Shown here piece by piece: positions 1 through 23,396 of a stretch of 41,219 bases of DNA. The translations under genes were made by a program, and so were the position numbers. Under the pieces are notes generated by a model that had not been told where the DNA came from, ran no database searches, and saw nothing but the letters and a program-made list of their open reading frames with translations. Source of the stretch: a bacterium (GTDB lineage Bacteria; Bacteroidota; Bacteroidia; Bacteroidales; P3); the NCBI GenBank assembly GCA_014803485.1, contig JAAVBQ010000029.1:1-41219 (forward strand), in the 5' to 3' direction. Each line of letters begins with the position of its first letter. Positions within the stretch are counted from its first letter, which is position 1.

Positions 1-203
1 ATGAAAATCTTATCGGCCTCTTTCCCTTCTCTCATTTTTTTGGTTTTTCCGAAGGATATTTGGGCAATAAATGCAAAGGCCTACCTTCGACAATGAACAA
101 TGGAAGAACGAACTACTCCTACGACTTTGACCATGATGGTTTCGTGTCAACCATCTATGTAAACGGAAAACCCGACTATCGAATTACCTACCTCAAAAAA
201 TAG
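1..203 (+). CDS. C-terminal fragment of a lipoprotein-like protein (partial, 5' end outside window)
   Basis: An open frame enters from the left edge (first whole codon at base 3) and ends at TAG 201-203, giving about 66 residues. It is missing from the ORF track because no start lies inside the window. The motif GYLGNKCKGLP and the final YLKK closely match GYFSNFCKRFP and the terminal YLKK of the lipoprotein encoded at 5332-6129, so I read it as the tail of a paralogue. The run YSYDFDHDGFV resembles the short beta-strand repeats of Bacteroidota lipoproteins of the DUF4595 kind, but that family name is a guess. Function is unknown. A strong terminator follows 22 bases after the stop. Confidence 0.6.
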   Translation, partial: ENLIGLFPFSHFFGFSEGYLGNKCKGLPSTMNNGRTNYSYDFDHDGFVSTIYVNGKPDYRITYLKK

Positions 204-216
204 TTTTTGCAAAAAC
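203..216. repeat. 14-bp palindrome GTTTTTGCAAAAAC
   Basis: A perfect palindrome overlaps the stop codon of the partial lipoprotein gene. Its right part (TTGCAAAAACAAAG, 207-220) recurs exactly at 933-946 on the other side of the repressor-like gene. Function unknown; it may be a protein-binding site or simply AT-rich leader sequence. Confidence 0.35.
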
Positions 217-225
217 AAAGAAGAG

Positions 226-253
226 GGGCAGTCCATTGCGGACTGCCCTTTTG
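226..253. terminator. Bidirectional intrinsic terminator
   Basis: A 9-bp perfect stem GGGCAGTCC / GGACTGCCC with loop ATTGC is followed by TTTTG on the + strand and preceded by A-rich sequence. It lies between two converging genes, the partial lipoprotein (+) and the regulator (-), so it probably ends both transcripts. Confidence 0.8.
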
Positions 254-254
254 T

Positions 255-881
255 TTATCTATCCTTGTGTTGCTTCTTGATATACTTCTCCAACCTGTTC
301 ACCTTGGCTTTCAAGGCTTCCATCTCTGCCAGAATCTTCTTTATCGTCCTGAGCGAAACCACCTCCTCCTGTTTCAACATAGCACCCTTACCGTTCAGAA
401 CCCACTCCATATTGAGGCGCGGATAGGTCGTCTCGATGTCCGCCAGCTGCCGCAACGTCAAATCCTCCTTTAACGCCTTGTCGTAAGCCCTGCGCGTCCA
501 CTTCAACTGCTCCAACGCCACCTTAATCTGGATATTCTCCGCATACAGAAAAGTTACGAAGCGGTCCACCTTCCGCATCTCCCCCTGCGGCGCCGTTTCA
601 TTCCGCTTGTACAGCATTTCCTCCTCTCCGGTTATTACCCAACCTATATTAATCTTGGAATCTAAAACTTTTATCTTTTCTAATAGCTTTTGAGGAACAG
701 GTGCATCCCCTTTCAATATACGCCAAAAACTTGGATAAGCTTTATATCCCAACAAAAAGCCCAAGTCTCTACGACTTTTTGCCACCGCGCAACCAATTAA
801 ATAATCACACACTTCACAAAACCTCACCGCCTGTTGTTTAAGGAGTTTTTCCTCCAACATTCCTTTTTCTTGTTTTTTCAT
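255..881 (-). CDS. Double-HTH phage-repressor-like regulator with C-terminal coiled coil
   Basis: The predicted 208-residue protein looks like the XRE/CI-like repressors common in Bacteroidales mobile elements. The first half contains a helix-turn-helix-like stretch ending in NIGWVITGEEEML. The second half repeats the pattern and ends in NMEWVLNGKGAML; this 'xxWxxxGxGxML' ending is typical of the family. The last ~30 residues form a Lys/Glu/Leu-rich coiled coil, probably for dimerisation. The ORF track begins at 977, but its first 32 residues are AT-rich leader translation, so I use the ATG at 881 (860 is an alternative). The gene diverges from the 980-5016 operon and its start lies inside that operon's promoter, which suggests it controls the operon and itself. 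The exact DNA target is inferred, not shown. Confidence 0.75.
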   Translation of the reverse strand: MKKQEKGMLEEKLLKQQAVRFCEVCDYLIGCAVAKSRRDLGFLLGYKAYPSFWRILKGDAPVPQKLLEKIKVLDSKINIGWVITGEEEMLYKRNETAPQGEMRKVDRFVTFLYAENIQIKVALEQLKWTRRAYDKALKEDLTLRQLADIETTYPRLNMEWVLNGKGAMLKQEEVVSLRTIKKILAEMEALKAKVNRLEKYIKKQHKDR

Positions 882-899
882 ATAGTTTATGTACTTTTG
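870..899 (+). promoter_or_regulatory. Promoter of the 980-5016 accessory operon
   Basis: A Bacteroidota-type promoter: -33 box TTG (870-872), 19-bp spacer, -7 box TACTTTTG (892-899), matching TTTG-N19-TAnnTTTG apart from one base. Transcription would start near 906 and give a leader of about 75 bases. The regulator's ATG (881, opposite strand) lies between the two boxes, so transcription of one gene could interfere with the other. Confidence 0.6.
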
Positions 900-905
900 T
901 GAAAG

Positions 906-930
906 AATGTATACATAAAATATATACATT
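906..930. promoter_or_regulatory. Inverted-repeat operator candidate
   Basis: AATGTATA (906-913) and TATACATT (923-930) form a perfect 8-bp inverted repeat around a 9-bp AT-rich spacer. The left arm also lies in a 10-bp palindrome ATGTATACAT (907-916). It sits at the predicted transcription start of the + operon and upstream of the divergent regulator, the expected position for an autoregulatory repressor site. Binding itself is an inference. Confidence 0.5.
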
Positions 931-979
931 ACTTGCAAAAACAAAGTATATAACAATACTTTACGCAAATATAACAAAC

Positions 980-1228
980 ATGAAAGACTTTCGCATAGGT
1001 GAAAATTTCAGCAAGTTCGGCGCCACCTACACGGTGCGCGCCGGCGGAGGGTGTACCTGCTGCGCCTTCCACGGGCAGCCGGACATCTGCTCCACCCTCG
1101 CCTGCCGTGGCGATGAGCGCGGTGACGGCCGCAACGTGCATTTCGACGGCATCCCCCTCACACCCGGCATCCTGTCGTCGGCGGCCGCCACCTCCGGCGA
1201 ACGTGCCTTTAACCTTATAAAACGATAG
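980..1228 (+). CDS. Small Cys-rich protein, possible zinc ribbon (82 aa)
   Basis: The start is the ATG at 980 (MKDFRIG), not the upstream ORF-track start at 899, which lies in the promoter. Residues 25-42 hold Cys25, Cys27, Cys28, Cys37 and Cys42, followed by an ERGDGRNVHF segment. Small proteins of the form C-x2-C...C...C..ER.DG..V.F occur in Bacteroidales phages and mobile elements, mostly unnamed; the resemblance is from memory. Four of the cysteines could bind zinc. It is the first gene of the operon under the putative repressor, 4 bases before the next gene. Function unknown. Confidence 0.6.
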   Translation: MKDFRIGENFSKFGATYTVRAGGGCTCCAFHGQPDICSTLACRGDERGDGRNVHFDGIPLTPGILSSAAATSGERAFNLIKR

Positions 1229-1232
1229 CATT

Positions 1233-1610
1233 ATGTATGTAGTTGACACAAGAGCCTCTATTTTAATCTGCGTCGGACTCCTATTCTTTTTAGTGGCGAT
1301 GCTGATGGTACGCTATGTATGGTTAAACGATATAGACCTGGACAGACTACAAAAGAGAGGTATTCTTATCTCGGCCTTCATCCTGCTCACGGTACCCGTC
1401 GTTTGCTTTTTCGAAATCAAGAAAAATAATCCGCCAACAAGAGTACCCACAACTCGTGAACTTATCAAGGAAATATCGAACCAACAGCACGCAACGGACA
1501 GCCTCATGTCCGCCCGTTTGATTCACCTGGAAGAACTATGCGACAGCCTGCGCCTGATAGCCACCCAAAATTCAGAAACAGAAAACCTTGCAACTAAACA
1601 TCATGAGTGA
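1233..1610 (+). CDS. Small two-TM membrane protein, copy A
   Basis: A 125-residue protein with two hydrophobic segments (about residues 8-28 and 45-62), then a polar, probably cytoplasmic, tail of about 60 residues containing LEELCDSLRL. The same arrangement and the motif LEKLCDSLQL occur in the 4284-4613 product, so the two are probably related. The stop overlaps the start of the next gene by 8 bases (ATGAGTGA), indicating translational coupling. No known function recognised. Confidence 0.65.
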   Translation: MYVVDTRASILICVGLLFFLVAMLMVRYVWLNDIDLDRLQKRGILISAFILLTVPVVCFFEIKKNNPPTRVPTTRELIKEISNQQHATDSLMSARLIHLEELCDSLRLIATQNSETENLATKHHE

Positions 1611-1962
1611 CATATACACCACCCAAGAAGAACTGACCACCGTGGTAAAACAGGTGGTCGAAAAAGTGATTGACCGCCATCTGCGCATCATGTACGCCAA
1701 TGCCCGCCATTCGGTTCAGGCCAGCCCCCGGCTTTCGTCGGTGGGTTTCCTTGTCGGCCTGGACGAGATATGCGGCTTCCTGCATTGCTCCCGTCCCACC
1801 GCCATCAAGCAACTGAACACGACTTTGAAACGCGCCGTGCTGTCCGGCAAGGGCGGGAAACGCTATATGCTGGACGGCGACATGGCGGCGCGGCTCCTCT
1901 CCCATGCAGCGGAACGGAATCGCAAAACCGTGAACACACCCAAATGCAAGAAACATGATTGA
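1603..1962 (+). CDS. DUF3853-like helix-turn-helix protein, copy A
   Basis: The protein has 119 residues from the ATG at 1603; the track's start at 1588 lies further inside the previous gene. The C-terminal half (GLDEICGFLHCSRPTAIKQL..., then KRYMLDGDMAARLL) fits the small winged/HTH domain of DUF3853 proteins, known from Bacteroides mobilisable elements and probably DNA-binding. The N-terminus is an amphipathic helix region. A second, clearer family member ends the operon (4666-5016). The stop overlaps the primase-like gene by 8 bases. Possible roles are an element-specific regulator or replication accessory protein; sequence alone cannot decide. Confidence 0.6.
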   Translation: MSDIYTTQEELTTVVKQVVEKVIDRHLRIMYANARHSVQASPRLSSVGFLVGLDEICGFLHCSRPTAIKQLNTTLKRAVLSGKGGKRYMLDGDMAARLLSHAAERNRKTVNTPKCKKHD

Positions 1963-2929
1963 CATAAGCCTTATCCGACAGATTCCCATTGAGAACTGGC
2001 TTGCCTCACGCGGCATCGAGCCGGTCCGTCAGAACGGCCACGACCTGTGGTACCACTCGCCCCTGCGACAAGGCGACCGCACCCCCTCCTTCGTGGTACA
2101 CCGCAACTCCAATTTCTGGAAGGACTTTTCTTCCGGCGAGGGCGGCAGCATCATCGACCTGGCCATGCATCTGAACCAGCGCCCCTATATCGACACCATC
2201 ATGATGTTGTCGGACTTCGCCCCCGAGGCCAAGCAATACACGCCGATGATGCCGGCATTGGGCGGCCCCGGGGATAGCGCCGCCACACCCCGCTCGTTCG
2301 AACTGCTCAAGGTGAAGCCTTTCGGCGGGAACCAAAGCCTGGTGGATTATGTGCGGCAACGGAACATAGACCCGTCCGTGGCGACACGCTACGGATTACA
2401 GGAAGTCTATTATCTCAACAGCCGTGGCCGACGGTGCTTCGCGCTCGGCTTCCCGAACGACAGCGGCGGCTACGAAATCCGCAATCCCTACTTCAAGGGC
2501 ACCATCGGCAACAAGGCCATCACCACCATTTCCGCCAAAGACCCTTCGGTGGCGGCAGTCTTCGAGGGCTTCACCGACTATCTGTCCTACCGCCAGCTGC
2601 ACCCCGAGTTCCGCGGCATGGCGGTTGTGCTCAATTCCACCGCCCTGGCGGAGCGTGCCGTCCCCGTCCTGCAGGAGTGTCGGGAAGTGACCCTGCTGCT
2701 GGACAATGATGCCGCCGGCAACGAAAAGACGGCTGAAATCACCGCCCGTCTCGCCCAGCTCGCACCGAGCTGCCAAGTAAAGGACGGACGCACCGAATAC
2801 GCCGCCCACAATGACCTGAACGATTACCTGCGGGCCTCTTCCATGAATGAAAAGACGACACGGAGGGAAGAGGTACGACGGGCGGCACCCATGCCGAACA
2901 AGCATAAATCACACACTCATAAATTTTAA
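1955..2929 (+). CDS. Toprim-domain primase-like protein with degenerate CHC2-type N-terminus
   Basis: A 324-residue protein. The N-terminus (about 1-75) follows the layout of the DnaG zinc-binding domain (WYHSPLRQGDRTPSF...GGSIIDLAM) but has no zinc cysteines. A toprim fold follows, with the conserved Glu in VFEGFTDYL (E204) and the DxD pair in LLLDNDAAG (D250, D252). This short form is common in Bacteroidales mobilisable elements and is thought to act in element DNA replication. It lacks helicase and full RNA-polymerase domains, so primase activity is uncertain. The Lys/His-rich C-terminus may bind DNA. It lies two genes upstream of an SSB gene, consistent with a replication role. Confidence 0.8.
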   Translation: MIDISLIRQIPIENWLASRGIEPVRQNGHDLWYHSPLRQGDRTPSFVVHRNSNFWKDFSSGEGGSIIDLAMHLNQRPYIDTIMMLSDFAPEAKQYTPMMPALGGPGDSAATPRSFELLKVKPFGGNQSLVDYVRQRNIDPSVATRYGLQEVYYLNSRGRRCFALGFPNDSGGYEIRNPYFKGTIGNKAITTISAKDPSVAAVFEGFTDYLSYRQLHPEFRGMAVVLNSTALAERAVPVLQECREVTLLLDNDAAGNEKTAEITARLAQLAPSCQVKDGRTEYAAHNDLNDYLRASSMNEKTTRREEVRRAAPMPNKHKSHTHKF

Positions 2930-2940
2930 AGAGCCTCATC

Positions 2941-3435
2941 ATGATTAACCCTTTCAAGCCCTCCCCTGCCGACGCGCCCGAAAACCGCGATATATGCTTC
3001 CGATACAACCGCTATCGCCGTTATCTCGGCCGCCAGCGACGCCGTGAAAAACGGCGCAATATGTCGCTGTACGTCATGCTGCCCGTCATGGCGGCGGCCT
3101 TAATCATATCGTTGTATCACACTTTCGCACCCAAGCGGCAATTGCTGCCCACTGCGGAGAGTGCGGGCGTGAACCTTCTGCCCGACAGATTCCTCCAATC
3201 CCTCGACAACGCTTCCACACGGCTCGACAGCATCCTGCACGTGTTTATGCCCGACGACAGTGTGTCGGCCCGACAACTGCGGGAGAGGTTCGATTCCTTG
3301 GATCCGAACTTCGACCTCTTTCTGGGAGAGCCGGGGCTCGGCACCTTCCTGAATGTGGTTTCCGCCTGTGCGGAATTCGCCTCTGTCGGAAAACAGGCCG
3401 AGGCCCAAACGGAAAAACAACCCGAAAAAAGATAG
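2941..3435 (+). CDS. Hypothetical single-TM protein
   Basis: A 164-residue protein. It begins with a very basic segment (RYNRYRRYLGRQRRREKRR), then one transmembrane helix at about residues 41-60, then a longer predicted external or periplasmic part with SLDNASTRLDSILHVF and an acidic middle. The tail is rich in Gln, Glu and Lys. By the positive-inside rule the basic N-terminus stays in the cytoplasm. It stands 11 bases after the primase-like gene and 2 bases before ssb. No family recognised. Confidence 0.6.
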   Translation: MINPFKPSPADAPENRDICFRYNRYRRYLGRQRRREKRRNMSLYVMLPVMAAALIISLYHTFAPKRQLLPTAESAGVNLLPDRFLQSLDNASTRLDSILHVFMPDDSVSARQLRERFDSLDPNFDLFLGEPGLGTFLNVVSACAEFASVGKQAEAQTEKQPEKR

Positions 3436-3437
3436 CC

Positions 3438-3860
3438 ATGGCGGGATTTTTAGCAGCGGAACTAGTCGGCCGCATCGGGCAGCCGGCAAAATGGAACGAA
3501 CGGGAACGTCGCTACCTCACGTTCTCGGTGGCGCATAATGTTACAGCGGGGCGCAACGGCATACCGCCCGAAGTGTTGTGGGTTTCCTGCATTTGGTTCG
3601 AAGCGCCCCAAAAAATTGCGGAATACCTCACCGCCGGCACGGAGGTGTTTGTGCGGGGCAGGTTGTCGGTCCACACCTACCGCACTTCGCAGGAGGAAAC
3701 CAAAGTATCGCTCGACATCACCGTCAGCGAGCTCAAAATCCTGCATACCGCCGCCCGCAAGAACGAGGACGGCGGGCAACAGGCCGCCGATCCGTCGGCT
3801 TCTCCGGAGGGCAAGGAACTGGATGCGGCGCAGGATAAAACCTTTTATAGGGATTTTTAA
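3438..3860 (+). CDS. ssb: Single-stranded DNA-binding protein (element-encoded SSB)
   Basis: A 140-residue protein with an N-terminal OB fold: LVGRIGQPAKWNERERRYLTFSVA, then LWVSCIWFE and TEVFVRGRLSVHTY, which follow the strand order of bacterial SSB. The C-terminus ends in DKTFYRDF, acidic/aromatic and reminiscent of the SSB tip that recruits partner proteins, though not the classical DDDIPF. It coats single-stranded DNA, probably during replication or transfer of this element, since the chromosome should carry its own housekeeping ssb elsewhere. Its stop and the next start share one base (TAATG). Confidence 0.85.
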   Translation: MAGFLAAELVGRIGQPAKWNERERRYLTFSVAHNVTAGRNGIPPEVLWVSCIWFEAPQKIAEYLTAGTEVFVRGRLSVHTYRTSQEETKVSLDITVSELKILHTAARKNEDGGQQAADPSASPEGKELDAAQDKTFYRDF

Positions 3861-4252
3861 TGGAGACACTGACGGAAATACAATCGACCGCGAACACATG
3901 GGAATCCTTTGTCCGCATACGAAGAAACGGACAGGTATTCTTCTCTCGGGCGGCGGTGGAACGCCTCCACCTGTCGGCCGGCGACCCGATATGGTTCCTG
4001 ACCGACACCCAAGACGGAAAGGCCTGGTTTTTCCTACGCACCTACGGACAAGCCGCAGGCAAGACACTCCTACGCTGTGTTCCGGGTGGCCAAAGCCTGG
4101 TGTGCAACCACCTCACCTTCAGCCGACAGTTGTTTGCCGCGCTGGAGAAACACAACCCCGCGATTCAGGAATACAATACGTATAAATGCCTGCTGGCCAC
4201 CACCGCCGACGAAAACGGATTGTATTCCATCATGACCGATAAGATTTTATAA
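3860..4252 (+). CDS. Hypothetical protein (130 aa)
   Basis: A soluble protein with no signal peptide or membrane segment and no family that I recognise. The N-terminal half (VRIRRNGQVFFSRAAVERLHLSAGDPIWFL) resembles in rhythm a small DNA-binding or SpoVT/AbrB-like beta-strand unit, where a gene product 'uses' a short swapped-hairpin fold, but this is weak. It is translationally coupled to ssb. Base composition is high-GC like its upstream neighbours, whereas the next two genes are visibly more AT-rich. Confidence 0.55.
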   Translation: METLTEIQSTANTWESFVRIRRNGQVFFSRAAVERLHLSAGDPIWFLTDTQDGKAWFFLRTYGQAAGKTLLRCVPGGQSLVCNHLTFSRQLFAALEKHNPAIQEYNTYKCLLATTADENGLYSIMTDKIL

Positions 4253-4283
4253 CAATACCTATAAACCCTAAAAAAATAATCCT

Positions 4284-4613
4284 ATGCTCGAAGTAATCGC
4301 TCTCATCGTAATCTTCTTATGTTTCATTGTCTCATTGGTGTGCGTGGTATACAGTACGTACCCAAAAAACATTAAGCTTGCTATGTTCTTCGCATACTTT
4401 ACGGCCATGGCTATTTTCTCATGGCAGGCAGTCAAGGCTTATAAGGATATGCTAAACGAAAAGGAAGAGCGCACGCGCTATGTGGAGGAAAGCACACATA
4501 CTTCGTTAGAGAAGTTGTGCGACAGCCTACAACTGGAGCACGTTATTGAAGAAAGCTACGTGACCCTTACTGACAGCACCATCGATATACACTTATTGTT
4601 AAACAAACGATAA
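4284..4613 (+). CDS. Small two-TM membrane protein, copy B
   Basis: A 109-residue protein with two hydrophobic segments (about 3-24 and 34-50) and a polar tail containing LEKLCDSLQL, the counterpart of LEELCDSLRL in the 1233-1610 product. Like copy A it is followed by a DUF3853-type gene, so the pair seems duplicated. A 31-base gap separates it from the preceding gene. Function unknown. Confidence 0.6.
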   Translation: MLEVIALIVIFLCFIVSLVCVVYSTYPKNIKLAMFFAYFTAMAIFSWQAVKAYKDMLNEKEERTRYVEESTHTSLEKLCDSLQLEHVIEESYVTLTDSTIDIHLLLNKR

Positions 4614-4665
4614 GCCATATCCAACAACATACATTTTTGTAACCCCACGCAAAAGAGAAACGACT

Positions 4666-5016
4666 ATGGATATTGATGTACAGGCCTTGCTCAAGAAACC
4701 CATCATGGAGATGACCGGAGAGGAATTCTTGGCCTTATCGAATGCGCGCGCCACACAGGCGATACAGGAAAAACCGCATACGGAACCCATAGCCCATACC
4801 ACCAAGTATGAAGCGACACAATACGTTTTCGGGCTGGAGGGAATCGGAAAGTTATTGGGTGTGGGTAAATCCACCGCCGCCTATTACAGGAAAACCTTCC
4901 TTGCCTCCGCCATCATTCAAGGTGGCCCCCATTGCAAGATTAGAATCGACCGTTCGGAAGCCTTGCGGCTTTTCGAAGAACATATGGGGAAAAACGGTAT
5001 TATAGGGAGTGTTTGA
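4666..5016 (+). CDS. DUF3853 family HTH protein, copy B
   Basis: A 116-residue protein with the family hallmarks: an N-terminal segment MDIDVQALLKKPIMEMTGEEFLAL, then YVFGLEGIGKLLGVGKSTAAYYRK, a helix-turn-helix of the excisionase/MerR-like shape, and a final KIRIDRSEALRLFEEH. DUF3853 proteins occur in Bacteroides mobilisable elements and are assumed to bind DNA. It is the last gene of the operon; a hairpin with a T-rich tail lies about 160 bases downstream. Copy A (1603-1962) is more divergent. Confidence 0.75.
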   Translation: MDIDVQALLKKPIMEMTGEEFLALSNARATQAIQEKPHTEPIAHTTKYEATQYVFGLEGIGKLLGVGKSTAAYYRKTFLASAIIQGGPHCKIRIDRSEALRLFEEHMGKNGIIGSV

Positions 5017-5173
5017 TTAAGGAAAATTTTCATAATTTCGCATAAATGATACCATAAAAACACAAACAGTGAGCCATACGGCACCCACAATACGTGTTGT
5101 ATATTGTGTTTTAAATTATACAACAGACTGAATACCAATACAAGTTAGAGTCCCCGTGGGAGTACGAAGATTA

Positions 5174-5331: not shown

Positions 5332-6129
5332 TTATTTCTTCAGATAAGAAACTTTCGTGTGAACATCACCTTCACCATCAACATTAAATTCGATAAAGGA
5401 TTCAATAAAGTTGTCATCGCTAAAAGAGTATTCAAACACGTGATGAAACTCTTCTGAATGTTCTGGATATTTAATAGTTATTTCTGTCGGAAATCTTTTA
5501 CAGAAATTGCTGAAATAACCTTCAACCATATAAATTGGATGGTCACTATATTCAAAACCTTTTAAAAAACAGATATTTGTTCGATTTTCTCTGTTGGATA
5601 AATAGGTATAATACTCTTCCCGTCCCTGTCCATCTTTAATTATAGACAATAGATCTTTTTCCCAACTATATTTTCTTGAGAACCAGTCTACATCATCTTG
5701 ATATTCTAACAATCGGCCGCTGGCATCATAAGAAATAGCGTGTGTGGTGGAAACAACCCGCCCGTTTTCCCATCTATAACAAGAATCAATCCGTCCGTTT
5801 ATTCCTTTTTTATAAACGATACTATCAGAACCATCTATAAACACTACAATTCTGTCCTGAAAATACTTATATTGATAACTTTCACGGATTTCGTTATTAA
5901 AACATTGTACAATGGATATGATTCTTTGGTGCTCATCATACTCAAATGAAAGAGAAGATAAATCGTTTTTACCATTAAAGGCTACGAATTCCTGCTCTAT
6001 CTTACTCACCAACCGGCGTCCGTGGCTATCGGTGACGTATTGGGAGGTTTCGGAAGTGGGTTTGTTGCAGGCGGTGACCAACAACAGAACCGCCGTAGCG
6101 GCAAGCACAAGGTGTAATAGTCTTTTCAT
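5332..6129 (-). CDS. Lipoprotein with YD-like beta repeats
   Basis: A 265-residue exported lipoprotein: residues 1-21 form a signal peptide ending in the lipobox LVTAC, so Cys21 or so would be lipidated. The mature part has several short units of the kind 'Y.Y....I....DGSDS', 'ISYDASGRLLEY' and 'SFEYDEHQRIISI', resembling the YD-type or DUF4595-like beta repeats of Bacteroidota surface lipoproteins. The C-terminus (GYFSNFCKRFP...YLKK) matches the fragment at the left edge, so the two genes are paralogues lying on opposite sides of the accessory operon. A -7 box lies at 6164-6171. Role unknown; probably cell envelope. Confidence 0.7.
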   Translation of the reverse strand: MKRLLHLVLAATAVLLLVTACNKPTSETSQYVTDSHGRRLVSKIEQEFVAFNGKNDLSSLSFEYDEHQRIISIVQCFNNEIRESYQYKYFQDRIVVFIDGSDSIVYKKGINGRIDSCYRWENGRVVSTTHAISYDASGRLLEYQDDVDWFSRKYSWEKDLLSIIKDGQGREEYYTYLSNRENRTNICFLKGFEYSDHPIYMVEGYFSNFCKRFPTEITIKYPEHSEEFHHVFEYSFSDDNFIESFIEFNVDGEGDVHTKVSYLKK

Positions 6130-6163
6130 ATTGCTTTTGTGTTTTAATGATACAATAAGGTGG

Positions 6164-6171
6164 CAAAAGTA
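6164..6171 (-). promoter_or_regulatory. -7 promoter box of the lipoprotein gene
   Basis: On the minus strand the sequence reads TACTTTTG, matching TAnnTTTG, 35 bases upstream of the ATG at 6129. No good -33 box at the usual distance. Confidence 0.5.
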
Positions 6172-6206
6172 AGTATTTTATTGGCCAAAATAAAATGTAA
6201 ATTATT

Positions 6207-6316
6207 GTATTTTATTATTATAAAAGGTTGTTTGCGGTCAAAAAAAATGCCAGGCCGCAGAAATTTATCTCCACACTCTCAACCCCATCCGCCCCTCTTT
6301 TATAATAATAAAATAC
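6207..6316. repeat. 19-bp perfect inverted repeats around a 72-bp centre
   Basis: GTATTTTATTATTATAAAA (6207-6225) and its exact reverse complement (6298-6316) enclose 72 bases. The centre is much more GC-rich than the arms (for example CAGGCCGCAG). It could be a small MITE-like element, a long stem-loop RNA or a cruciform site. I see no target duplication just outside the arms. Confidence 0.6.
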
Positions 6317-6454
6317 TCGACAAACGGACACATCATCTCAAAAAAAGTTATCAACAGGATAAGGAGTTTATTGTTTGTGGTTTGCTCCCCGCCAGCGTGC
6401 CTATCGCATTAACCTGTATGCAGGTTGTTAAACTGCTGGTTTATTTACTATTTA

Positions 6455-6733: not shown

Positions 6734-8032
6734 TTAATCTCTCAAACAACCAATTGGTATTATTTTCACCCCGTCCTCGCGAGTGTATGCCATTTCTCCG
6801 CCTGTGAGAACAATCAGTAAATCCGGTTCGCGAAGTCTGATTTGCTTCTCTGCATTGTTCTTCTCAGCTATAAGGCGTTTGATTTCAAGAAGGTGCTTAG
6901 CACCTTCTTCTATTTCCCGACTACCGAGTTTGCATTCTATCAATGCATATCGTCCATCATCAAGGTGTAGCACTGCATCTGCCTCAAGCCCGAGACGATC
7001 ATGATAATACGATAGTCGCCCACCCAATGCTTGTGAATATACACGAAGGTCACGAAAACATAAACATTCGAATATAAATCCAAAAGTATTTAAATCCAAT
7101 TCAAGGCTCTCAGGCGATGCACCCAAAGCGGCTACAGCAATAGAAGGATCCACGAAACAACGTTTCTTGCTGGTACGGATAACCGTCTTCGAGCGAATTG
7201 CAGGAGACCACGCTTCAATATCATCTATTACAAAAAGTTTCTCCAATGCTCCGACATAATCATCAAATGTAGGCATAGAAGTTCCTTCCATTTCCTCGGA
7301 TACATCAGCAAGCATAGCTGTTTTCTTTGCAAGAGTGCATATGTTTCGTGCATATGTACGAAGAATCAGACGTGCCAATGTGGGATTACGGCGTGTTTTA
7401 TCAACCCTTGAAATATCCTTATTGCAAATCTCGTCAACATAATCCTTCGCTATGAGTAGTTTTGCATTTACACTCATATCATCAAGAGACGCAGGCCAAC
7501 CGCCACGACAAGCGGCAAATATCAGCCGATCGATAGAGAGTTGGGATATATCGCCGTCAATATTGTAATCAGGGTCATCGAAAAGGCGGCGCAACGAAAT
7601 AGCACCGTTTGAATCAAGAGACTCGAATAGACTCATTGGATACATTGCCATCTTGGTTATGCGTCCCGTTCCAGTATGCATTATTTCATCATCGTCTATT
7701 ACTGTTGAGCCCGTCAGAATAAACTGCCCCTTCTCTCTACGTTCGTCAACGGCATGGCGAACTGCATCCCATATTACAGGAGCCACCTGCCATTCATCAA
7801 TAAGCCGAGGGGGAGCTCCCTTGAGCAACAGCGAAGGCTTTGTACGTGCAGTAGCAAGATAGCCTTCCCGTCGGTCCGGATCCTGCATCTTTATGACACT
7901 TTCCGCGCGTCGCTCTGCTGTCGTTGTCTTGCCACACCACTTGGGGCCGGCAATCTGTACCGCACCGAAAGCCTCAAGCCTCAAATCAAGAGTCTTGTCT
8001 GCAATTCTACTTAGATACTTTTTTTCTTTCAT
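6734..8032 (-). CDS. AAA-family ATPase with DUF4143 (AAA_14) domain
   Basis: A 432-residue protein from the ATG at 8032; the track's 8044 start is a TTG in the leader. Residues 29-36 (GPKWCGKT) are the Walker A motif and PRLIDEWQ the Walker B region; ILTGS is the sensor-like segment. The C-terminal half (DLNTFGFIFECLCFRDLRVYSQ..., LEADAVLHLDDGRYALIECKLG) is the DUF4143 domain, whose D...E.K pattern recalls a PD-(D/E)xK nuclease fold. Such ATPases are widespread in gut Bacteroidales, often in several copies, with unknown targets. Three 23-bp repeats cover its promoter, suggesting autoregulation. The 78-aa gene follows 42 bases downstream. Confidence 0.85.
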   Translation of the reverse strand: MKEKKYLSRIADKTLDLRLEAFGAVQIAGPKWCGKTTTAERRAESVIKMQDPDRREGYLATARTKPSLLLKGAPPRLIDEWQVAPVIWDAVRHAVDERREKGQFILTGSTVIDDDEIMHTGTGRITKMAMYPMSLFESLDSNGAISLRRLFDDPDYNIDGDISQLSIDRLIFAACRGGWPASLDDMSVNAKLLIAKDYVDEICNKDISRVDKTRRNPTLARLILRTYARNICTLAKKTAMLADVSEEMEGTSMPTFDDYVGALEKLFVIDDIEAWSPAIRSKTVIRTSKKRCFVDPSIAVAALGASPESLELDLNTFGFIFECLCFRDLRVYSQALGGRLSYYHDRLGLEADAVLHLDDGRYALIECKLGSREIEEGAKHLLEIKRLIAEKNNAEKQIRLREPDLLIVLTGGEMAYTREDGVKIIPIGCLRD

Positions 8033-8068
8033 AACTAATTGCAAAGTTAATAATTAAATCTGACACCA

Positions 8069-8592: not shown

Positions 8593-10203
8593 ATGATAGA
8601 ACGCAACACTCCCGAATCGGCTCTGAACGAAAGGCAGGGCGTGGACAAACTGCCCACGGTAAATCCCTATATCTCAAACAACCTACAGGCTCGCAGGGCG
8701 CAGAAGTCCATGAGCACGGAGGAGTATGTAAAAGGCATACGGGAAGGGAACCGCACGATACTGAGCCGCGCCATTACACTTATCGAGAGTACTTTACCCG
8801 AGCATCAACGGCAGGCACAGGAGATTATCGAAAAGTGCCTGCCCTACTCGGGCAATTCGTTCCGTTTGGGCATCACCGGTGTGCCGGGTGCCGGCAAAAG
8901 CACCTTTATCAATACGTTGGGGCTACACTTGGCCCGCACGGGCAAGAAGTTGGCTGTGTTGGCCATAGATCCCAGCAGCGAACGTACCAAAGGCAGCATT
9001 TTGGGCGACAAGACCCGCATGGATGAACTTGCCTGTCAGGAAAATGTCTTTATCCGTCCTTCCCCCTCGGCCGGTTCGTTGGGCGGGGTGGCCCGCAAGA
9101 CCCGCGAATCGGTGATTCTCTGCGAGGCGGCAGGGTTCACCCATATCATTATCGAAACCGTGGGTGTGGGACAATCGGAAACCGAAGCCTACAACATGGT
9201 CGATTATTTCCTGCTCCTGCAGTTGGCCAACTTGGGCGACGAACTGCAAGGCATCAAGCGGGGCATCATGGAAATGGCCGACGGTATCGCCATCAACAAG
9301 GCCGAGGGCGATTTTAGGCCCAAGGCGCTTTTGGCGCAGACCCAACTGCGCAACGCCCTTCAATTGTTTCCTCCCACCGCATCGGGCTGGAAGCCCTCTG
9401 TGGAAATCTGTTCGGCCAAAATCAACGAAGGCGTGACGGGGGTTTGGAGCGTGATTGAAGAGTTTGAACGGTTCTGCAAGCAGAACGGCAGTTTTGAACG
9501 CCGTCGCCGCGAACAACTCAAGAAAGTGTTGCAGAACTCCTTGCAAGAAAACATCTTGGCGCATTTTTTTGCGCAACCCGATACGGAAAAGAATCTGGAC
9601 GAAGCAAGGGAAAAAGTTTACGACTACAAGGTGAATCCCTACACGGCCGCTCAAAAATTGGCGGAAGATTATTTCAATTCGTTGGGGAAATCGCCCCAAA
9701 AACCGGCGGTGTCGCCTGCAAGCCCGGTGGTGCCTCCTGCGCCGAAATCCACCGCGCCACAGTCCGCCCCGAAGCCCGTCCGCTCCGACATACCGCACTT
9801 CGAACACGCCCTGGCCGTAGACGCGGCCTGCGCCGGCAATCCCGGGAAGATGGAATATCAGGGTGTACAGGTAAACAACGGCAAAGTGATTTTTCATGTC
9901 GGTCCTTTCCCCGAGGGAACCAACAACATAGGCGAGTTTTTGGCGATTGTGCACGCCTTGAGTTTCCTCAACAAACACGGCCTCACGCAGACGCCCGTCT
10001 ATTCCGATTCGGTGACGGGAATGGCTTGGGTGAGAAAGAAGAAGGCGAACACGAAAATTGTCCCCTCCGCCCGTAACCGTGAGTTGCTCGATATGGTGGC
10101 GCGGGCCGAAAACTGGCTGCAGACAAACCGTTATCAAAACCCTGTCTTGAAGTGGCAGACGGAAAAATGGGGCGAGATTCCGGCGGATTTCGGAAGAAAG
10201 TAA
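8593..10203 (+). CDS. MeaB-type GTPase fused to a C-terminal ribonuclease HI domain
   Basis: A 536-residue protein with two recognisable parts. Residues ~50-370 are a MeaB/ArgK G3E GTPase: P-loop GVPGAGKS at 96-103, then DPSSERTKGSILGDKTRM and ETVGVGQSE; MeaB protects methylmalonyl-CoA mutase and helps load its cobalamin. Residues ~374-402 are a Pro/Ala/Ser-rich linker. Residues ~403-536 are an RNase HI domain, with candidate catalytic acids D410 (LAVDAACAGNPG), E448 (NNIGEFLAI), D472 (YSDSVTG) and D500 (RELLDMV). In related bacteria both normally occur as separate proteins (established for each family); the fusion is what this sequence shows. The reading frame is continuous, with no sign of a lost stop. 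Both active sites look intact. No mutase genes are in the window. Confidence 0.9.
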   Translation: MIERNTPESALNERQGVDKLPTVNPYISNNLQARRAQKSMSTEEYVKGIREGNRTILSRAITLIESTLPEHQRQAQEIIEKCLPYSGNSFRLGITGVPGAGKSTFINTLGLHLARTGKKLAVLAIDPSSERTKGSILGDKTRMDELACQENVFIRPSPSAGSLGGVARKTRESVILCEAAGFTHIIIETVGVGQSETEAYNMVDYFLLLQLANLGDELQGIKRGIMEMADGIAINKAEGDFRPKALLAQTQLRNALQLFPPTASGWKPSVEICSAKINEGVTGVWSVIEEFERFCKQNGSFERRRREQLKKVLQNSLQENILAHFFAQPDTEKNLDEAREKVYDYKVNPYTAAQKLAEDYFNSLGKSPQKPAVSPASPVVPPAPKSTAPQSAPKPVRSDIPHFEHALAVDAACAGNPGKMEYQGVQVNNGKVIFHVGPFPEGTNNIGEFLAIVHALSFLNKHGLTQTPVYSDSVTGMAWVRKKKANTKIVPSARNRELLDMVARAENWLQTNRYQNPVLKWQTEKWGEIPADFGRK

Positions 10204-22289: not shown

Positions 22290-23396
22290 ATGAGAGATAT
22301 GGACGATAAACCAACATTTGTATATCGGGACGGAATGTTGTCGGACACGAGATATGTAGAATGGCTATCTGATGTAAAGGCTCGCTTCCGCCAAAGTCAG
22401 ATTAAAGCCTCTATCCGCGTCAATACAGCTATGCTTGAATTCTATTGGGGTGTCGGAAGGGACTTGGTAGCATTACGTGCAGAAGAACGTTGGGGAGCAG
22501 GCGTGGTGAAACAGTTTGCCCTCGATATGCGTCAGGCTTTTCCATCAATAACCGGCTTCTCGGACTCCAATGTCAAGTACATGAAGCAATGGTATTCGTT
22601 CTATTTTGAAGGTGTTACAAAAAGCCAGCAGCCTGTTGGCCAAATAAAAAAAGAAAAAAGCCAGCAACCTACTGACCAATTGGAAATGCCCGAAATCTTC
22701 GGTCACGTGCCTTGGTTTCATCATGTGCATATCATTTCCAAATGCCAATCTCTTGACGAGGCTTTATTTTATATCAACAAAGTAGCTGAAGAGGGGTGGA
22801 GTCGCAGCATACTTGAAAACAAGATTGCGTCCAACTTTTTCCTATCTCAAGGTGCGGCCGTTACCAACTTTGAACGTACATTGCCTTCATCACAAAATTC
22901 ATTGGCCAAAGAAATGCTGAAGGACCCCTATCACTTTGATTTCTTGTCTATGAAGGCTGAATATGACGAGCGTGATTTGGAAGAAGCGCTTGTAGCCAAC
23001 ATAACCCAGTTTTTATTGGAATTGGGCAAGGGCTTCTCTTTCGTGGGACGACAAATGGAGTTGCAGATGCCCGGAGGACAGACTTTCTTTCCCGATTTGG
23101 TGTTTTATCATATTCCGCAACACAGGTATGTCATCATAGAGTTGAAAACGGTAAAATACATTCCGGAGTTTGCCGGCAAACTCAACTTCTATGTCACGGC
23201 AGTCGATGCGTTGCTCCGCGGAGAGGGGGATAATCCCTCCGTGGGGCTGATTATCTGCAAATCCACAGACAAAACCATCGTGGAATGGTCTTTAAAGGAC
23301 ATCAATAAGCCCTTGGGGGTAGCCACCTACCAATTACAGGAAGTGGTTGACCGCACAATGGCAGAACTGGAACTGAGAACAAAGAAATTCTTATAA
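22290..23396 (+). CDS. YhcG-type PDDEXK nuclease (DUF1016)
   Basis: A 368-residue protein; 22290 (MRDMDD) or 22299 may be the start. The N-terminal domain (LSDVKARFRQSQIKASIRVN, LEFYWGVGRDL, FALDMRQAFPSITGFSDSNVKYM) is DUF1016_N, a winged-helix DNA-binding unit. The C-terminal half has the nuclease core FPDLVFYHIPQHRYVIIELK, where D, E and K form the PD-(D/E)xK site. A Gln/Lys-rich linker (near residues 110-130) separates the two. The family occurs scattered in genomes, often near restriction or defence genes; its role is uncertain. It lies between two copies of the pdxS promoter and has a lower GC content than pdxST, so it looks inserted. Confidence 0.85.
   Translation: MRDMDDKPTFVYRDGMLSDTRYVEWLSDVKARFRQSQIKASIRVNTAMLEFYWGVGRDLVALRAEERWGAGVVKQFALDMRQAFPSITGFSDSNVKYMKQWYSFYFEGVTKSQQPVGQIKKEKSQQPTDQLEMPEIFGHVPWFHHVHIISKCQSLDEALFYINKVAEEGWSRSILENKIASNFFLSQGAAVTNFERTLPSSQNSLAKEMLKDPYHFDFLSMKAEYDERDLEEALVANITQFLLELGKGFSFVGRQMELQMPGGQTFFPDLVFYHIPQHRYVIIELKTVKYIPEFAGKLNFYVTAVDALLRGEGDNPSVGLIICKSTDKTIVEWSLKDINKPLGVATYQLQEVVDRTMAELELRTKKFL

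Follow-up and report, generated by a model that had tools for sequence, protein, structure and literature searches.

What kind of element does a compact operon of replication and regulatory genes belong to when no gene for its mobility lies beside it? We addressed this question in a 41,219-bp stretch of Bacteroidales DNA, called the window here at its full length, the first position of which is also a terminus of contig C29 (74,825 bp) of genome G000, a 57-contig MAG that is 77% complete. An earlier note, made from the letters of the window, had described nine tightly packed plus-strand ORFs (980-5016) and a divergent repressor ORF (255-881, minus strand), all of which are present [Table 1], and had taken them for the replication/regulation module of a mobile element. 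An att core, an exact empty site, a linked integrase, relaxase and coupling protein, an orthologous conjugative element elsewhere, and presence in two of 13 congeners all agree with that proposal. We consider it likely that positions 1-5165 form an end of a Bacteroidota conjugative-type element inserted in the 3' end of a tRNA-Glu(CTC) gene, that the operon is its regulation/replication module, and that the whole is probably an integrative and conjugative element (ICE). The data do not support an uncharacterised element type, as had been entertained, since the cluster belongs to a larger element of this kind; what we see is the end of an ordinary kind of element whose control operon is uncommon.

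Table 1. Features of the element side of the window (window coordinates; L035 coordinates refer to the orthologous element of genome G011).
Feature	Position	Strand	Remarks
Lipoprotein-like gene, C-terminal part, cut by contig end	3..203	+	Element cargo adjoining repressor; counterpart at same place in G011 (L035 7484-8317), 46% over 74 aa
Hairpin GGGCAGTCC...GGACTGCCC then T run	209..253		Read from sequence; lies where lipoprotein and repressor genes converge; likely terminator
Repressor-like protein, two XRE-type HTH halves and C-terminal coiled coil	255..881	-	Start 860 or 881
Operon promoter CTTG-N19-TAnnTTTG	869..899	+	Kept in L035 8962-8992
Inverted repeat 1, AATGTATA-N9-TATACATT	906..930		Candidate operator; counterpart L035 8999-9022, different arms
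Inverted repeat 2, AAAGTAT-N6-ATACTTT	943..962		Candidate operator; counterpart L035 9038-9056, different arms
Four-Cys mini-protein, 82 aa	980..1228	+	60% ortholog keeps C25, C28, C37, C42
tm1, small membrane protein	1233..1610	+	Poorly conserved; short L035 match, same place
hth1, HTH protein, DUF3853-like below cut-off	1603..1962	+	15.6 bits (gathering 22.1); 61% ortholog
Toprim primase, TraP/mobile-element primase type, zinc ligands lost	1955..2929	+	Pfam/NCBIfam; ~72-73% ortholog
tm2, small membrane protein	2941..3435	+	41% ortholog over 113 aa
SSB	3438..3860	+	PF00436, 41.8 bits, 1.2e-10; 69% ortholog
130-aa protein, no assigned family or fold	3860..4252	+	63% ortholog
tm3, small membrane protein	4284..4613	+	Missing from G011 element
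hth2, HTH protein, DUF3853	4666..5016	+	PF12964, 50 bits (gathering 22.1), 3.5e-13; 47% ortholog
Attachment core TCCCCGTGGGAGTAC, far end of element	5151..5165		Host DNA from 5166

The attachment core is identical to the last 15 bases of a tRNA-Glu(CTC) gene on another contig of the same genome (C25:19066), where the tRNA gene adjoins a tyrosine integrase gene. The empty site was found in genome G004 (L059:6016), whose DNA flanking the tRNA-Glu site is ~95% identical to that of G000; here the tRNA gene runs directly into the sequence that follows 5165 (junction GTTCGATTCCCCGTGGGAGTAC/GAAGATTAAACACCC). Therefore, the window up to 5165 is element DNA, with host chromosome after it, and the element side reaches past 5016 on the right and past 255 to the contig end on the left. 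Judged from these junctions, 1-5165 is the far end of an element inserted at tRNA-Glu.

The leftward extension that had been proposed stops at the contig end, and the integrase-side end was found on C25. The earlier statement that neither an integrase nor a relaxase can be seen thus holds for the window only, as both genes are on C25. Up to the tRNA gene, this contig carries genes for a NikA/MobC_2-type accessory protein, a MobA/VirD2-type relaxase, a MobC-type coupling protein, a large polyvalent protein bearing RadC/LPD domains, topoisomerase III (topB), and, directly after topB, the tyrosine integrase. The relaxase matches PF03432 at 87.8 bits, and its closest NCBIfam model is MobB, below that model's cut-off; the coupling protein scores 989 bits against MobC (cut-off 900). 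Among the features by which an ICE is recognised, we found the integrase, att repeats and empty site, and the relaxase and coupling protein, the latter two both on C25. The assembly gives C25 and C29 as separate contigs, with no physical link between them; the empty site, which joins both flanks exactly, is most simply read as placing the two ends in one element.

A second species of the same genus (G011) carries an orthologous element of 57.8 kb in a tRNA-Ala gene, bounded by 15-bp repeats at 216529 and 274313. It has most of the genes of the G000 element, at 67-86% identity, although the polyvalent and repeat proteins fall below this in places. The co-occurrence of the operon genes elsewhere, which had been suggested as a check, is evident here: of the nine operon genes, all but tm3 are present and in the same order, as are the repressor and the integrase, and the integrase that adjoins the operon is a 72% ortholog of the one on C25. 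In addition, the element carries TraG/VirB4, TraJ, TraK, TraM, TraO and DUF4138. Read from the tRNA, the genes of the G011 element come in the order integrase, operon, tra, mob, topB, and those of the G000 element in the order integrase, topB, mob, followed on the other contig by lipoprotein, repressor, operon, att. By this order, the two elements differ in that the interior is inverted relative to the integrase and att; either an inversion or a tandem of two elements could account for this. Also in the G011 element, an AbiH-family gene lies at the far end, between topB and att (L080 2824-4143; G011:C33:272824-274143), and large repeat proteins resembling phage tail fibre/collar proteins lie beside the tra genes (L054 1-10280); one of these was scanned and gave no Pfam match.

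These arrangements bear on two other ways of reading the locus. Two elements could sit in tandem at tRNA-Glu, the C25 end coming from one and the operon end from the other, and the position of the operon, opposite the integrase end in G000 and adjoining the integrase in G011, would fit this. However, it needs two insertions, and G000 has only one close integrase, the ortholog of the one adjoining the operon in G011, so we regard a tandem as quite improbable. An integrative and mobilizable element, having integrase, relaxase and coupling protein and relying on a helper for the mating pore, is an unlikely alternative: searches of the 77%-complete assembly of G000 found neither a VirB4 nor a DUF4138 gene, and relatives of the primase also occur beside Mob genes in mobilizable elements. 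Against it stand the incompleteness of the MAG, which lacks the middle of the element, and the conjugation cluster of the sister element, whose operon, integrase, mob and topB genes are orthologous; because of this cluster we think an ICE probable and prefer it to a mobilizable element.

The distribution of the genes is patchy. Close relatives of the primase (~72-73%), the 130-aa protein (63%) and the integrase were found only in G000 and G011 among 13 genomes of the genus, the operon marker and the integrase co-occurring in these same two; a further congener (G002) has a 36% relative of the primase only. Across 190 genomes of the family, the 130-aa protein is confined to two, and the integrase, counted with its more distant relatives, reaches 20. 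For every operon gene compared with its ortholog, dN was below dS wherever dS was not saturated; the operon genes compared are under purifying selection, and this counts against a decayed remnant. The earlier note had offered a domesticated remnant as an option; with the exact att and empty sites, the intact linked integrase and the patchy distribution, such selection makes a domesticated, immobile remnant kept by the host very improbable. A phage satellite or prophage remnant, to which the phage-like repressor and palindromes could point, is barely credible, as the linked genes are conjugative, no PHROG structural gene is in the operon, and no close relative was found in viral contigs. Searches of the latter gave no relative of the 130-aa protein or the repressor and a weak 28% match for the primase only; capsid-hijacking or packaging genes and viral relatives, the marks of a phage satellite, were absent from the element parts examined.

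Of the families named in the earlier note, toprim, SSB and the DUF3853 assignment of hth2 stood in the family scans, while the second DUF3853 call, hth1, was sub-threshold only, and the two HTH proteins share only 20-23% identity; the other operon proteins gave no family match above cut-off. The toprim protein was recognised by Pfam as a toprim domain with a degenerate DnaG-type zinc finger (1.7e-11). It has the DnaG-like N domain and the toprim E and DxD motifs (EGFTDYLS, LDNDAAG) of the TraP/mobile-element family, and by sequence it belongs with TraP-type proteins. Its zinc-ligand positions are lost, likewise in relatives at 31-37% identity, and the toprim motifs remain; such relatives lie beside TraO in an ICE tra operon of B. 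fragilis (p214), and in mobilizable elements they adjoin genes for DUF3853, AAA and relaxase proteins. The primase and SSB together point to handling of single-stranded element DNA, and hth2 may be an excision or regulatory factor; in the literature searched, neither the function of DUF3853 nor NBU1 prmN1 was the subject of any paper. For the 130-aa protein, a plasmid search gave no relative, and an AbrB-like motif is a lead by eye only, as the structure model (mean pLDDT 41) was unusable. Homology of tm1 and tm3 was likewise discarded, their common match being just 10 residues. Sequence searches of solved structures gave no match.

The control region has diverged in a patterned manner. Each HTH half of the repressor ends in an IN..W..(T/N)G.G.ML-like motif. 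In the predicted structure, the N-terminal helices have a pLDDT of about 68-88 and the nearest folds are XRE repressors; the fold comparison gave no significant E-value, and no sequence match to a solved repressor structure was obtained. The G011 ortholog is 64% identical overall, with 46/92 positions (50%) in the N domain against 83/107 (78%) in the C part. The promoter upstream of the first gene has the same spacing in both elements, and its consensus is of the Bacteroidota type. Two inverted repeats lie downstream of it at matching positions in both elements, with differing arms. In a shuffled-pair test, set up post hoc once the palindromes had been seen and with shared ancestry removed by the shuffling, two co-located repeats arose in 0/5000 pairs at arms of at least 7 and in 7/5000 at arms of at least 6. 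The greater divergence of the N domain is expected if this domain reads the changed sites, and together with the changed palindromes it suggests a heteroimmunity-like control. Tentatively, and with some doubt, one may extend this to a family of Bacteroidota conjugative elements in which operator positions are kept, operator sequences change along with the DNA-binding half of the repressor, and the interior flips such that the control operon comes to lie at either end.

Related sequences and further genes were also noted elsewhere in G000. On contig C57, a lipoprotein paralog (71%) is followed by an 11-codon stub of the repressor C-terminus, EKYVKKQHKDR and stop (G000:C57:15210-15501; L055 10210-10501), the region matching window 42-295 at ~80% identity across 257 bp. 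This is possibly a relic of a related element near tRNA-Leu; neither a second copy of the 3' end of the tRNA-Leu beside the paralog nor a second att was found. A repeat-like region at window 6118-6434 is 77% identical to another part of C57 (L055 15564-15877), and the two copies precede two unrelated secreted-protein genes. On the host side of the att site lies a DUF4143/AAA_14 ATPase gene (6734-8044), which alignments suggest is missing from G004. Further on are a MeaB GTPase-RNase H domain fusion (8593-10203), seen in most genomes of the genus, and a DUF1016/YhcG PDDEXK nuclease gene (22290-23396) in otherwise housekeeping surroundings.

Returning to the ICE that we favour, its operation can be sketched as follows. 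The element is integrated by a tyrosine recombinase at the 3' end of tRNA-Glu(CTC), and the double-HTH repressor probably keeps the operon off by binding the two palindromes just downstream of the promoter, a binding that we infer because their position is conserved and their sequence changed. Once derepressed, the operon would supply the DUF3853 HTH proteins, which may serve in excision or in further activation, as the family would lead one to expect, and, again by family knowledge, the TraP-type primase and SSB, which may copy and protect the single-stranded DNA of the element after excision or transfer. The roles given to the repressor, primase, SSB and excision factors are drawn from homology only. 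In essence, an apparently orphan operon becomes the defined end of a tRNA-targeting conjugative element for which the att and empty sites are exactly placed. Should the repressor and palindromes act as proposed, they would offer a compact model for the silencing of some Bacteroidota elements and for how related elements share a cell.

Among known systems, the element resembles the CTnDOT-like Bacteroidota ICEs (TraG/J/K/M/O, MobB/MobC) in its MobC coupling protein, MobB-like relaxase, tyrosine integrase and topB, and the sister element does so further in TraG, TraJ, TraK, TraM, TraO and DUF4138. Unlike those ICEs, the elements here sit in tRNA genes, and the TraP-type primase shares with SSB and DUF3853 an end operon under repressor control, whereas in B. 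fragilis p214 it is beside TraO. NBU/Tn4555-like mobilizable elements (L073, L075) share the toprim primase next to HTH/DUF3853 genes, the integrase and the relaxase, and for NBU1, too, integration takes place at the 3' end of a tRNA (PMC5704250). In contrast to them, a coupling protein is carried here, the sister has its own mating genes, and no AAA partner gene adjoins the primase. The control region recalls phage and ICE immunity repressors in its divergent HTH repressor, in the palindromes at the operon promoter, and in the divergence of both the DNA-binding half and the sites, but differs from them in having two HTH halves in one chain together with a coiled coil.
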